NCBI GenBank assembly: GCA_902769055.1
Contig: CACXNL010000001.1
Location: 1 to 56,550 of the forward strand
Length of the DNA: 56,550 bases
Source of the DNA: an uncultured Pseudomonadota bacterium
Lineage (GTDB): Bacteria > Pseudomonadota > Alphaproteobacteria > RUG11792
Direction: 5' to 3'
Shown here: one piece after another, positions 414 through 47,621 of the stretch
How positions within the stretch are numbered: the stretch's first letter is position 1
How the letters are laid out: each line of letters starts with the position of its first letter
Position numbers and translations under genes: made by a program
Notes under the pieces: generated by a model
The model's database searches: none
Told to the model about the DNA's origin: nothing
The model's input: only the letters and a program-made list of their open reading frames with translations

Positions 414-1301
414 CTAGAATTTAAATAAAGACTTTATGTAACCCCACAAAGTTCTCTTAAAAAAATTCGTTATTTTGTCCCACGTCCTACTTAGCATACT
501 CGTGTTCGGGGAATTATCTTTCGCTTCCTTCAAGACAACTTTGTCTTTTACTTCGTTCTCTTTTTCGTGTAGTTCTTTTTTATCATTTAAAGCCGGCTTG
601 ATATTTGAAGTATACTTAGCATTCTGTAGTTGAAACTTGATTGTGCCTCCTTCTCGTGCCGTTTTGACCGAGTTATCGAATGTTAGTTGTTTATCTTCTA
701 CTTCCTGGCGCAGCGTTTCTATTTTATCTTTTTTGCTTGTTTCCTCCTTTAGCCCGCCTTGTTCAGGTAATTTATTTACGCTGGTCGCCAAACTTATTTC
801 ATCTTTTAGCTTTTTCTTATTTTCTTCAGACCCACTGGCTTTATTAAACTTTATATCATCTGTGGAAAGCTGCTCGTTTATCGTTCTGTTATTCACCTCA
901 TCTAGAATTTCACTTTTCTTTTCTTCGTTATCAACGCTCACTACTTTTTTCTTCAGCTCAAGTGCCAATTTTGGTCTGTTGCTTTTATTACCTCCGCTTG
1001 TTGAATTTCTCTTCTTCTTCTTTTCTTGTATTTTATTTTTGATAGACCAATACGCATTTTTGTCTTCCTGTATCTTCTCCTCCCAGAAGCTAGGACCATA
1101 ATGACGTATTGCAATTTCTCGTGTTATTCTGTCAATCTCCTTTAAATCGGTTTCATCTGCGAGGGCTTCATTAAGTTCTTGCTTATATTCAAGATAGTGC
1201 AATGCACATTCCTTTTCGTATTGGCTGCCATGCGCCACACTGATGCTGCCCATTATTATCAGTGGCACTGCTCCAACTACGCCTAAACTCCTGCTTTTCA
1301 T
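414..1301 (-). CDS. Secreted Lys/Glu-rich protein of unknown function (paralogue A)
   Basis: I do not recognise a known family. The protein starts with a basic, hydrophobic signal peptide (MKSRSLGVVGAVPLIIMGS, then ISVAHGS). A short conserved N-terminal domain follows, then about 190 residues that are low-complexity, charged and rich in Lys, Glu, Asn and Ser. The aromatic amphipathic C-terminus has the pattern LSRxWxKxxNFFxxxxWGxIK. Signal peptide, N-terminal domain and C-terminal motif are all shared with the gene at 11038-11968, so the two form a family. The ATG at 1301 is chosen because the paralogue starts at the equivalent place with the same GTGGG/GAGG spacing; TTG and ATG codons 5 and 2 codons upstream are alternatives. 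At the place where the paralogue has (CT)11, this copy has an imperfect CTT-type tract and stays in frame. Export is inferred from the signal peptide only. Confidence 0.75.
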   Translation of the reverse strand: MKSRSLGVVGAVPLIIMGSISVAHGSQYEKECALHYLEYKQELNEALADETDLKEIDRITREIAIRHYGPSFWEEKIQEDKNAYWSIKNKIQEKKKKRNSTSGGNKSNRPKLALELKKKVVSVDNEEKKSEILDEVNNRTINEQLSTDDIKFNKASGSEENKKKLKDEISLATSVNKLPEQGGLKEETSKKDKIETLRQEVEDKQLTFDNSVKTAREGGTIKFQLQNAKYTSNIKPALNDKKELHEKENEVKDKVVLKEAKDNSPNTSMLSRTWDKITNFFKRTLWGYIKSLFKF

Positions 1302-1334: not shown

Positions 1335-1363
1335 ATTCTAATACATCTTGTTTCTTAGGTCAA
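1335..1363 (-). promoter_or_regulatory. Sigma-70-like promoter of secreted-protein paralogue A
   Basis: On the minus strand, TTGACC (1358-1363) is separated by exactly 17 bp from TAGAAT (1335-1340). About 50 bp around it are nearly identical to the region upstream of the paralogue (12001-12029), while the flanks are not. That conservation argues that this is the functional promoter. Confidence 0.7.
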
Positions 1364-10987: not shown

Positions 10988-11016
10988 AGGGCGTCGGCTG
11001 CTGAAACCGACGCCCT
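10988..11016 (-). terminator. Terminator of the phase-variable secreted-protein gene
   Basis: A perfect 10-bp GC-rich stem (10988-10997 and 11007-11016) with a 9-nt loop lies 22 nt past the reconstructed stop codon at 11038 on the minus strand, followed by CTTTGTT. Its position fits the full-length reading frame, not the truncated one that stops near 11627. Confidence 0.75.
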
Positions 11017-11037: not shown

Positions 11038-11968
11038 TTATTTCCAGATCTTATGCTTAATGCTTCCCCATGCGCTCCAGAAGAAGTTCTTCACTTTGCT
11101 CCAGACTCGCGATAGCAACGATTGTTGCGTAGGTTTTTGCTGTCCTGTGTTATGACCACAACTTTGCTTTTGACTTGTAGCCTTATTTTCTTTTATTTCA
11201 ACGGAATTATTCTCTTGTTTAATGTTTACTTTATCTTGCTCTTTAATGGTTTGTTCTTTTTCGGATGTTAGTTCAGACTTATCAATTACTACTGTTTTTC
11301 CAGAGACAGTCTCTTTGTCCGTGCTTTTTTGATCCTCGGGCGCCTCAATTGTTGTTTTGTTCTCACTTTGGACTTGTTCTGTTAACTTATCTAGTTTTGG
11401 TTCTTCTTTTTGGTCTTCACCTAATTCGTCGTTTAAACGATCCTTATTTTCCTCAGGTTTATTGATTGTATCAGATACATTTTTTATTGTGTTAAGCTCT
11501 TCTTCTTTCTTCGGAGGCTGCTCCTTTAGTTCATCTTTAATATCCTGTGCAAGATTTTCCGCTTTTTTAGTATCATCGCCTACTGCTTCTTTTTTTAATT
11601 CAATTTCTAACTCTGACTTTTTGCTTTTAGTTCCCTTGCCTATTGAATTTCTCTCTCTCTCTCTCTCTCTCTTGCTGTTCTTTCTTTTTCTCCAGATCTA
11701 AATACGCATCACGAGCTGCTTTATATTTCTCTTCAGTGAATGGGTATCCAAAATGCTCTTGTTTCAAGTTATCTTCCATCTCGTGCACTTCATTTATCGG
11801 ATAACCATTCCAATCACCTCTTTCGGCAATCGCGGCAATCTCGTTGTTGTACTTAGCATATTGCCTTGCAAGCTGCCGTTGATACTTTTCGCTGCCGCTT
11901 GCCACACTGATGCTGCCCGCCACCGTCAACAGCACTGCTCCATGTGTTATCAATGTTCTGTTCTTCAT
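11038..11968 (-). CDS. Secreted Lys/Glu-rich protein (paralogue B), frameshifted at a (CT)11 repeat; probably phase-variable
   Basis: Paralogue of 414-1301. The first frame (11968 down to the stop at 11627) encodes a signal peptide (MKNRTLITHGAVLLTVAGS), a conserved N-terminal domain and then a run of Glu-Arg codons from the GA repeat, stopping after FNRQGN. One frame over, translation stays open from the repeat to a TAA at 11038-11040. It begins RNSIGKGTKSKK and ends LLSRVWSKVKNFF plus WGSIKHKIWK, the same C-terminal motif as paralogue A. The repeat sits where paralogue A reads AGA AAT TCA ACA in frame. Adding one CT unit (12) or removing two (9) joins the frames into about 310 residues. Promoter, ribosome-binding site (AAAGAGG) and terminator are intact, so this looks like a switchable gene in the OFF state. 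A sequencing or assembly slip in the repeat would look the same. Function unknown. Confidence 0.8.
11651..11672. repeat. Dinucleotide microsatellite (CT)11 inside a coding region
   Basis: Eleven uninterrupted CT units (GA on the coding strand), extended by one T on the left. It lies about 100 codons into the secreted-protein gene, exactly at the breakpoint between its two open frames. It is by far the longest simple repeat I see in the window. Confidence 0.95.
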
Positions 11969-12000
11969 TTTCATAACCTCTTTCAAAGATTTACAGGGTA

Positions 12001-12029
12001 ATTCTAATACCCCTTGTTTCTTACGTCAA
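12001..12029 (-). promoter_or_regulatory. Sigma-70-like promoter of secreted-protein paralogue B
   Basis: On the minus strand, TTGACG (12024-12029) is followed by a 17-bp spacer and TAGAAT (12001-12006). Sequence and spacing match the promoter of paralogue A (1335-1363) almost base for base, including the spacer core AAGAAACAAG. Confidence 0.7.
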
Positions 12030-15946: not shown

Positions 15947-17215
15947 CTATAGCACATCTCCATAACGATCAATGGCAATTAGCCGCATTGTGCCCAGATC
16001 GGCATCCCATACCCAGTTTGGGTAGTACGTCAGCTGCGTGCCAGCACTTTCATCCAGCTTGATATAATTCTTCAGTATTAAACTGTTGCAGTCCCTCAGC
16101 ATAGTTCCATCATATCCAGGGTATTTTATGCTGTTCTTGTTGAAATCGCTTATTTCTAGTTCAATTAAAGAATTGCAGCCTTCAAGTATATATTTCATTT
16201 TTGCTACCTTTTGTGTATCAAAATTTGTCAAATCTAATCTGGTGAGACAGCTACACCCCTTGAACATCATGCTTATGTCTGACACATTGCTAGTGGTAAA
16301 GCTACTTAAATCCAAGCTAATGAGGCTACTACATCCTTCAAACATACTGTGCATTGTCGATACGTTACTTGTGTTGAATGTGCTTAAATTTAAGTCAATG
16401 AGACTTTTACATCTTGAGAACATAGCTTCCATTTGCGATACCTTTCCTGTGTCAAACTTCGTTAAATCTAACTTAATGAGACTACTACACAGGTTGAACA
16501 TGTGGCTCATATTGGATACGTTGCTTGTATTAAAATTGCTCAAATCTAAGTTAATGAGACTATAGCATGATGAAAACATGCTTGACATATTAGTTACTTT
16601 ACCTGTACCAAGATTTTCGAGGTTTAGTACCTTTAGATTACTACAACACGCGAACATTGATTCCATATCCGTTACGTTTTGTGTGTTGAGATTTCCAAGA
16701 TTTATAGTGTGTAAATTACTGCAAAAAGCAAACATGCTATTTGTATTTGTGATGTCTGTCCTGTCTCTTATGCCGCCAAGATCGATTTTTCGGAGAACTC
16801 TAGCCCACTGAAACATTGCCGATAAATCTTGTGGGAAATTTACATATTGACTATCATTTTCCTGAAAACTTAATTCTACAAGTAAATTGCGTGTATCTGT
16901 GTCTAAACCTAAATACTCGAATGCTTTTGGAGCTATAGATACTGTATATTTTTTCGTTCCATTTTTATAGCTTCCAGGAATAATTAGTCTGATCTTTTGA
17001 GGTTGGTCAGGTATAACCGCGTCTTCCTGCATAGAGACTTTTTTTATACAGAAATCGTTAATTTCTTCGCCAGTGTTATTTTTTACGACACTGTAATCTC
17101 CAGTAAATGTAAAATAGCCATTTTGAGTGTCAGACCCATTAAATGTTATCGTGGTTGCACAAACCGTAACTGAGCTTAAGCACGAGAGTGCCATCACTTT
17201 GTTTATCCTTTTCAT
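15947..17215 (-). CDS. BspA-type leucine-rich-repeat surface protein 1 (26-residue repeats)
   Basis: Exported protein with a hydrophobic signal segment (residues 4-20), then a short domain with ATTITFNG and YFTFT that recurs in BspA-type protein 3. From residue 165 there are seven complete 26-residue repeats of the bacterial surface type (DUF285/BspA-like), consensus CxxLxxLDLSxFxTSxVxxMxxMF, and an eighth partial one. A roughly 60-residue C-terminal cap follows. No membrane anchor, sortase signal or autotransporter barrel is seen. BspA-like repeats in other microbes bind host matrix proteins or other bacteria; the ligand here is unknown. The gene is complete, 422 codons. An 18-bp AT palindrome lies about 90 bp upstream. 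Confidence 0.88.
   Translation of the reverse strand: MKRINKVMALSCLSSVTVCATTITFNGSDTQNGYFTFTGDYSVVKNNTGEEINDFCIKKVSMQEDAVIPDQPQKIRLIIPGSYKNGTKKYTVSIAPKAFEYLGLDTDTRNLLVELSFQENDSQYVNFPQDLSAMFQWARVLRKIDLGGIRDRTDITNTNSMFAFCSNLHTINLGNLNTQNVTDMESMFACCSNLKVLNLENLGTGKVTNMSSMFSSCYSLINLDLSNFNTSNVSNMSHMFNLCSSLIKLDLTKFDTGKVSQMEAMFSRCKSLIDLNLSTFNTSNVSTMHSMFEGCSSLISLDLSSFTTSNVSDISMMFKGCSCLTRLDLTNFDTQKVAKMKYILEGCNSLIELEISDFNKNSIKYPGYDGTMLRDCNSLILKNYIKLDESAGTQLTYYPNWVWDADLGTMRLIAIDRYGDVL
16178..16723 (-). repeat. Seven tandem 78-bp BspA-type LRR units
   Basis: Coding repeats of 26 codons with a Cys at each register start (codons 165, 191, 217, 243, 269, 295 and 321). They are diverged at the DNA level and function as protein repeats. 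Confidence 0.85.
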
Positions 17216-45396: not shown

Positions 45397-46184
45397 GCAG
45401 CCGCTCAAGATACGTTATGTTGCAAGCACAGGAGCTAACTTCACTGGTCTAGGAAAGGCTCTTTGCATCGCAACAAATCGTGTCTATGCTTCAAATTTAA
45501 GCGTTGCACCATTGGCGATAGTAATGCGCTTTGATGCGTTTAAATGCCCACCGGATTTTAGTGTGAGGTTGTTGGACAATGTGTAATTTTCCGCGCCCGA
45601 GAAACTCAGAGTGCGTTTGATTCGACAATAGTGTCTGTTCGTGGGAGCGCTTTCGGATTGGTAAATACAATGGTCGTAGTTTTAACTCTGTCTCCGACTA
45701 TCAATGAGTTCTCGTTAAATTCCGTATTGTCTCCTGACACAATTATACTTCCAGTCAATAGCAAATTTGCCGGGTAATACCCAATTCCCGAGATCGTTTT
45801 ATTTATCAGATTTGTTGCGATAGTTTGTGTCGATCCATCGACTGCTATCGTTTGCCCAGAAGTACTCATTCCGATATATGCAGCATCGTTAAACGTTGCT
45901 CCAAACAACGCGGTAGGATCTATCTCCTCAGCGAACCTGGCGTCGGGAAGTTGCGTTGCAAGCGTTGTTCGTAAACTCTCAGAAATCCCCAAATCTCCAA
46001 ACACAACATAAACTTTGTTGGCTTCATCATTTATAGCACTTTTTACATTTCCGGATGTTTCAACAAATTCGAGCCCTCCATTTCCGATAACTCTCATATC
46101 AGATTTCGCATCTTCAAACATATATCCATTCACAGAAGGAATGACAAAATCCGGAGAAACCCGCAATAATTCCAAGTTTGTGCA

Positions 46185-47042
46185 GTTATCTAATAGCCAT
46201 TGCACGTTCTCTACCTGGCTGGTATCAAAGTTGCTGACGTCCAGTGTTTTTATTGCTGAACAATTGTAAAACATGGCATGCATATCCGTCACATTGTTCG
46301 TATCAAAGCTGCTTAAATCTAAATTCTCCAAACTAGAACAGCTATAGAACATAGCTTGCATTTTTGTCGCCAGGCTTGTATCAAAATTGCTAACATCCAG
46401 CACACTTACTCCCGAGCATCCATAAAATACATACGCCATATTGGTCACTTTACTTGTATTAAAGTTGCTTACATCCAAGATGCTCACACTGGAACATCCA
46501 TTAAACATATATGACATATCAGTTACGTTGCTTGTATTAAAATTACTTACATCTAGCTCCTCAAGATTAGAGCAGCCATAAAACAAAAGGTGCATATCTG
46601 TTACCTTGCCGGTATTAAAACGGCTTACATCTAAGTTTTCCAAGGTAGAACAGTTGTAAAACATATACGCCATATTGGTTACTTTACTTGTGTTAAAGTT
46701 ACTGACATCTAATATTCCCAGACTGGAGCAGCCGTTAAACATATAGGACATATCTGTTACCTTGCTTGTATTAAAGTTACTTAGATCTAATTCTTGCAAG
46801 CTCGAACATTTATAAAACATATACGCCATGTTTTTTACATTAGTCGTATCAAAGTTGCTTATATCCAAGTTTTTCAGACTGGAGCATCCATAGAACATAG
46901 AGCGCATAGTCGTAACCGAACTTGTATTAAATTTACTAACATCTATTGAATGTAATGCAGAGCAATAACCAAACATATACGACATTTCTGTGACATTACT
47001 TGTATCAGGATTGCCAAAATCTATAGACGATAACCTAAAACA
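46185..47042 (-). repeat. Eleven tandem 78-bp BspA-type LRR units
   Basis: 26-codon units with Cys at regular 26-residue steps. Repeats 4-6 and 7-9 are alike as blocks (both begin with DMSYMFNG-ending units followed by ILDVSNFNTSKVTNMAY units), pointing to a duplication of three units (234 bp). Confidence 0.88.
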
Positions 47043-47403
47043 GTTATAAAACATAGCTCTCAGTGTTGTTGCATTGGAAAGATTTGCCCCACTTAAATCA
47101 ATCTTTGTTTTTGATATTTTATTTGTTGCATCTTTACTTCCATCCCCACACTCTCTGAACATATCGCCTAATGATGTTGGAAATCCAACATATTCAGTGT
47201 TTCCTGTGCCCGGATTTTGCACTGGTCTAAACTCCAATTCAACATTCAATGGAGAATATACGTCTGTGTTAAAGACCTCCCATCTGAAAGCGTTTCCGAG
47301 CACGCTTACCTGATTGCCATTTACAAGCGCTGGAATGATGAGTTTCACGGTGCCTTCAGCATTATTTTGTTTGGGAATACATGTTGCTATACAGTATTCG
47401 CCT

Positions 47404-47409
47404 CCCCCC
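47404..47409. repeat. G6 (C6 on plus) tract at a frame break
   Basis: Six Cs on the plus strand, at the junction between the signal-peptide frame and the repeat-domain frame of BspA-type gene 3. Short compared with known slippage tracts. Confidence 0.75.
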
Positions 47410-47621
47410 GGAAGTAAATGTGAAGTATGAATTGTTAGGATTATTGTTTGTGTTCGTGCATCCATTGAATGTAATTGTCGTGGCATCGCATGATGCCAGA
47501 ACTGAAACAAATGCTAAAGTTTTTATAAAAATATTCATAATTCCCGCTCAATCAAAATTCCATACTCACGAATTTATTCTTTCACAAAATTGTTAATATT
47601 CCGTTAACGTTATAGAAATAT

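Follow-up and report, generated by a model that had tools for sequence, protein, structure and literature searches.

Introduction

Is a gene whose two halves lie in different reading frames on either side of a (CT)11 repeat a dead gene or one that is switched off? The locus that raises this question lies in a stretch of 56,550 nucleotides (hereafter the window) from contig 1 of an 807,469-base draft genome that consists of 20 contigs, is 76% complete, contains short N gaps and has a G+C content of 41%. The initial annotation of the window described a gene for a secreted protein that is broken only at the repeat and proposed that it is a phase-variable locus in the OFF state. The glutamyl-tRNA synthetase of the host genome finds its best matches in Alphaproteobacteria MAGs, several of which are from ruminant gut, with 73–81% identity. 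Genomes of the host's bacterial family measure ~0.5–1.1 Mb. The host appears to fit the order Rs-D84 (candidate genus Enterousia and relatives), whose reduced genomes have been described from farm animals (PMC12306168).

Results

Two reading frames that meet at a CT tract

The positions of the features discussed here are collected in Table 1. Analysis of the locus (designated the CT gene) confirmed that two frames meet at the eleven CT units (11651–11672) and overlap across them. The N-terminal frame yields a product of 113 amino acids that does not contain the C-terminal motif. The C-terminal frame, which the initial annotation had described as open for over 210 codons and as ending in the motif of an intact paralogue, consists of 218 codons and indeed has the tryptophan-rich, basic end typical of the gene family. 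At 11 units the two frames are offset by one position, whereas any unit count divisible by three produces a single frame; the earlier arithmetic, according to which one more unit or two fewer restores the frame, is therefore right.

Comparison with the intact paralogue reveals how the two frames are related. The N-terminal part of the CT gene aligns with residues 3–96 of the paralogue (E 3e-15, 34% identity) and the C-terminal part with residues 101–292 (E 2e-18), which leaves four paralogue residues between the two alignments. Because the paralogue spans both halves with a gap of only four residues, the alignments show that the N- and C-terminal frames are one gene, out of frame at one point only. 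A whole-genome tblastn search returned the identical two pieces. No second lesion was found across ~300 codons of the gene. The 203 codons downstream of the tract contain no stop codon, compared to a mean of 12.9 and a minimum of 3 in 2000 shuffles. Codon usage favours the expected frame over the other two frames of the same strand, but the opposite strand scores higher in this skewed sequence, and the measure was therefore left out of the assessment.

The tract itself is located ~100 codons into the gene, in a charged region, and was called by TRF at 11650–11672 with 100% matches. No dinucleotide run of comparable length exists in the 807 kb: this one measures 23 nt, the runner-up 10 nt, and the longest in simulated genomes 13 nt. 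CT/AG runs of 9 units are otherwise absent from the host genome, and the exact flank of the repeat gave no match in viral contigs.

The promoter, ribosome-binding site and terminator that the initial annotation had listed as intact are all present (Table 1). The promoter matches 10/12, a level at which chance is not small (3 such sites found versus 2.4 expected). It carries no long G tract, which would place the switch of this gene in the coding frame instead. Proteins encoded by the CT gene and its family are composed mostly of charged, low-complexity sequence and have few relatives. Neither half of the CT gene nor the paralogue matched any Pfam family at E <= 0.01, and membership in the Hop family of H. 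pylori was rejected on this basis. Assignment to the DUF285/BspA leucine-rich-repeat surface proteins was likewise rejected, since no DUF285 match or repeat was found in the CT gene or the paralogue.

Table 1 Features of the CT gene, its paralogue and related loci. Unprefixed positions refer to the window; those prefixed with C refer to contigs of the host genome (G000).
Feature	Position	Strand	Remarks
(CT)11 tract	11651..11672	-	(AG)11 on coding strand; both frames meet here
N-terminal frame	11627..11968	-	ATG 11968, stop at 11627; signal-peptide-like start; 113 aa, then stop
C-terminal frame	11038..11697	-	Open 11041-11697, stop codon 11038-11040; W-rich basic C-terminus as in gene family
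Promoter of CT gene	12001..12029	-	TTGACG, 17-nt spacer containing GGGG, TAGAAT; layout like family poly-G promoters, without long G tract
Ribosome-binding site	11977..11981	-	AGAGG, 8 nt before ATG 11968; by eye
Intrinsic-terminator hairpin of CT gene	10988..11016	-	12 pairs; -29.7 kcal/mol, z -5.9
Intact paralogue	414..1301	-	295 aa; short AAG repeat where CT gene has CT tract
Promoter of paralogue	1335..1363	-	TTGACC, 17-nt spacer, TAGAAT, no G tract; layout as in CT gene
Candidate phase-variable promoter	C3:42525	-	Poly-G (6-11)
Candidate phase-variable promoter	C3:56829	+	Poly-G (6-11)
Candidate phase-variable promoter	C3:65831	+	Poly-G (6-11)
Candidate phase-variable promoter	C4:9813	+	Poly-G (6-11)
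Candidate phase-variable promoter	C4:29801	+	Poly-G (6-11)
Candidate phase-variable promoter	C4:91430	-	Poly-G (6-11)
Candidate phase-variable promoter	C6:57383	-	Poly-G (6-11)
Candidate phase-variable promoter	C14:4272	+	Poly-G (6-11)
Sulfatase-fold gene	C13:10246-11836	-	Broken at G11 (11203); phosphoethanolamine-transferase-like by eye
Long secreted-type protein, no known family	C4:98470-100047	-	Poly-G ~ten codons after start, out of frame; paralogue of next
Long secreted-type protein, no known family	C6:23087-24739	+	Poly-G ~ten codons after start, out of frame
Outer-membrane-barrel-like gene	C3:89477-90278	-	Broken at G10; neighbour of next
Outer-membrane-barrel-like gene	C3:91520-92406	+	Broken at G10, same place

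Poly-G tracts in promoters of the gene family

A profile of the signal-peptide region, for which the CT gene was among the seeds, matched 18 places in the host genome (CT gene, 1.1e-15) and gave no convincing match in 34 other genomes of the bacterial family. Most members of the gene family are preceded by the sequence TTGACA, approximately eight bases, a tract of 6–11 G and AGAAT. About a dozen members carry poly-G between the -35 and -10 boxes (6–11 bases; in one, G23 into a gap). This promoter pattern matched 8 times in the host genome and 0 times when a reversed control was used. The -35/-10 spacing in the family promoters ranges from 13 to 18, with 17 being the usual optimum for such promoters. 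Three very similar promoters (53–57/59 nt identical upstream and 39–41/42 nt identical downstream, or 90–98% flank identity) carry G9, G6 and G7, and a fourth that shares their core carries G8; the upstream flank of C3_62467, which was misplaced by some bases, was left out of this comparison. The combination of similar flanks and differing G counts indicates that the tract evolves more rapidly than the sequence around it. At C4:38521-38585, G23 runs into a 42-N assembly gap inside a family promoter; the assembly probably broke at this tract.

The mature parts of the family members diverge, and some of them match DUF285 leucine-rich repeats. A basic, tryptophan-rich tail is found in most members, including the CT gene; the long frames of the host genome contain a mean of 0.4 tryptophans in their last 38 residues. 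Three members (C3:49504, C3:56885 and C4:42770) are broken by a frameshift or stop codon without a long repeat, and ordinary decay thus occurs in this family as well. The window further encodes, at 15947-17215 and 45606-47510 (-), DUF285 leucine-rich-repeat proteins with tandem repeats of 78 bp.

Poly-G tracts within coding frames

G/C runs of at least 9 bases occur 26 times in the host genome versus 1.1–1.4 expected, and those of at least 10 bases occur 15 times versus 0.4–0.6 expected. A/T runs of at least 10 bases, in contrast, are depleted (5 observed versus 29–43 expected). Long G/C runs have two main settings, promoters and coding frames, and the genes with poly-G spacers or coding tracts include secreted, lipoprotein-like, outer-membrane and sulfatase-fold types. 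Some twenty repeat-bearing surface genes in addition to the CT gene are candidate switches. Loss of mismatch repair was considered as a source of the long tracts and ruled out; mutS and mutL are both encoded in the host genome with scores over cut-offs, which argues against a general repair defect that raises slippage.

Ten genes contain a coding tract of 9–11 G and are readable on both sides of it. The tract is the exact point of breakage in seven of them, and the other three are in frame. The broken genes comprise the sulfatase-fold gene, two beta-barrel-like genes, a DUF285-type gene, C5:6255 (a member of the CT gene's family) and two long paralogues with lipoprotein-like starts. The two neighbouring paralogues of the sulfatase-fold gene, together with most of its relatives in the same genus, are single frames of 523–536 amino acids, which shows that the gene on C13 is interrupted. 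The position of the tract is shared by two DUF285-type paralogues, one with G9 (in frame) and the other with G11 (out of frame). The in-frame nucleoside transporter on C7 may be ordinary coding sequence. Starts with poly-G resembling those of the C4:98470/C6:23087 pair were also observed at L176, L178 and L179 of the bacterial family.

Repeats in other genomes of the bacterial family

Runs of ten G are present in 32 of 35 genomes of the bacterial family, although some lie at contig ends and are possible artefacts. Raw counts include overlapping positions and were used only for presence in these 32 genomes; contig-end poly-G in some relatives (e.g., G017) was not counted as it may arise from sequencing. 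At L183, G10 separates TTGACA from TATAGT with a 17-nt spacing, near position 1500 on the minus strand and before a long open frame. CT/AG runs of at least 8 units were found in three genera, those of the host, G011 and G047. In L213 (G011:C21:406-437), a signal-peptide-like start contains (CT)16, which encodes Leu-Ser repeats, and the ATG frame is not continued beyond the tract. The G047 paralogues L214 and L217 differ by one unit: the copy with (AG)8 is out of frame and the one with (AG)9 is in frame. Their tracts encode Glu-Arg repeats, as does that of the CT gene.

Searches of the 34 other genomes yielded no convincing relative of the CT gene, its N-terminal half gave no match against named genomes, and synteny of the rpoZ-gltX surroundings is not conserved within the genus. 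The lack of both a relative and this synteny leaves no orthologous tract for comparison.

Discussion

The CT gene is, with high likelihood, a phase-variable (contingency) locus that is OFF in the assembled consensus. The initial annotation is supported in this regard: the gene has the sequence-level features predicted for such a locus, and other genes of the same genome are also broken at repeats. The CT gene is very probably one switch of a genome-wide on/off system, as judged from the distribution of repeats. Slipped-strand mispairing during replication would add or remove CT units. Counts divisible by three would give the full protein with its tryptophan-rich C-terminus, other counts would give a truncated product, and the population would hold both ON and OFF cells. 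Relatives of the CT gene may be switched mainly at the promoter, where the length of the poly-G tract would determine how far apart the -35 and -10 boxes lie; in other genes for surface or envelope proteins, the switch may be poly-G within the coding frame. Such switching would probably serve to diversify antigens or binding properties at the cell surface.

A less favoured explanation is that a chance expansion of the tract shifted the frame of the CT gene, which is now a recent pseudogene drifting without reversal. The three family members broken without a long repeat illustrate such decay, and in a small genome the intact paralogue could cover the function. However, the CT gene has accumulated no further lesion, its tract is an extreme outlier in length, and repeats are the exact point of interruption in many other genes; we consider this explanation unlikely. 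We regard as still more doubtful that the interruption is an artefact of assembly or consensus, such that the true number of CT units differs and the gene is intact. The fragmented, incomplete and gapped state of the draft, together with the G23 tract that enters a gap, indicates that some repeats were hard to assemble. Yet one short read can hold the whole 22-nt tract, seven other tract-broken genes would each need errors, and a mixture of unit counts among reads would constitute phase variation itself. Neither decay nor artefact accounts for so many unrelated surface genes interrupted exactly at repeats.

The overlap of the N- and C-terminal frames across the tract would also permit the complete protein to be made at 11 units through programmed frameshifting at the AG tract, in transcription or translation. 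This is hardly credible: the sequence shows none of the classical slippery heptamers, dinucleotide tracts do not usually serve as slippage sites, and the rest of the genome points to variation at the level of DNA.

The proposed phase variation of the CT gene resembles established systems. In H. pylori, switching of exported proteins by CT repeats is established, and oipA/hopH and sabA are like the CT gene, whose product is putatively exported, in that the frame depends on how many CT units the coding sequence contains; sabA in addition has a promoter tract, which brings both kinds of switch together in one system (PMC10564699, PMC2715451). OipA is an outer-membrane protein and its tract falls within the signal peptide, whereas the CT gene encodes an unrelated protein and has its tract well downstream; the G011 gene with (CT)16 in a signal-peptide-like start is closer to oipA. 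The poly-G promoters of the CT gene's relatives recall those of N. meningitidis porA and opc, in which, as far as these are described in PMC5084427 (citing van der Ende 1995 and Sarkari 1994), a homopolymeric tract between the -35 and -10 boxes varies their spacing. Unlike porA and opc as described there, the host has roughly a dozen paralogous promoters that belong to a single family, the proteins are unrelated, the organism is an alphaproteobacterium and the CT gene itself is without a promoter tract. Repeat phasomes are known in Campylobacter and Neisseria (PMC6321876, PMC8355987, PMC5084427). Like the host, Campylobacter has a small, AT-rich genome in which many poly-G tracts, some intergenic and others intragenic, are associated with surface-related genes (PMC6321876, PMC8355987); organism and genes differ, and the host has mutS, mutL and a candidate dinucleotide switch.

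It is probable that the bacterial family of uncultured, small-genome gut Alphaproteobacteria possesses a large repertoire of such switches, in which a cassette comprising a promoter, whose poly-G tract acts as a spacing switch, and a signal peptide has been copied and placed before different secreted proteins, and to which coding-frame poly-G and CT/AG switches are added. Repeat-driven phase variation has been documented mostly in pathogens, including Neisseria, Helicobacter, Campylobacter and Haemophilus. According to a 2025 review, in which Alphaproteobacteria do not figure, this apparent restriction may reflect bias in the databases (PMC11868660). We found no reports of repeat phase variation in the host lineage in the open-access literature. 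The proposed mechanism is thus of a known kind, slipped-strand phase variation, in a lineage apparently undescribed for it, and the main interest lies in which organism is concerned and in how large its repertoire is. If true, these findings would extend the strategy of repeat switches to an uncultured, small-genome gut alphaproteobacterium with a different lifestyle. They also call for caution, as genes that look broken in drafts of such genomes may be OFF rather than dead.
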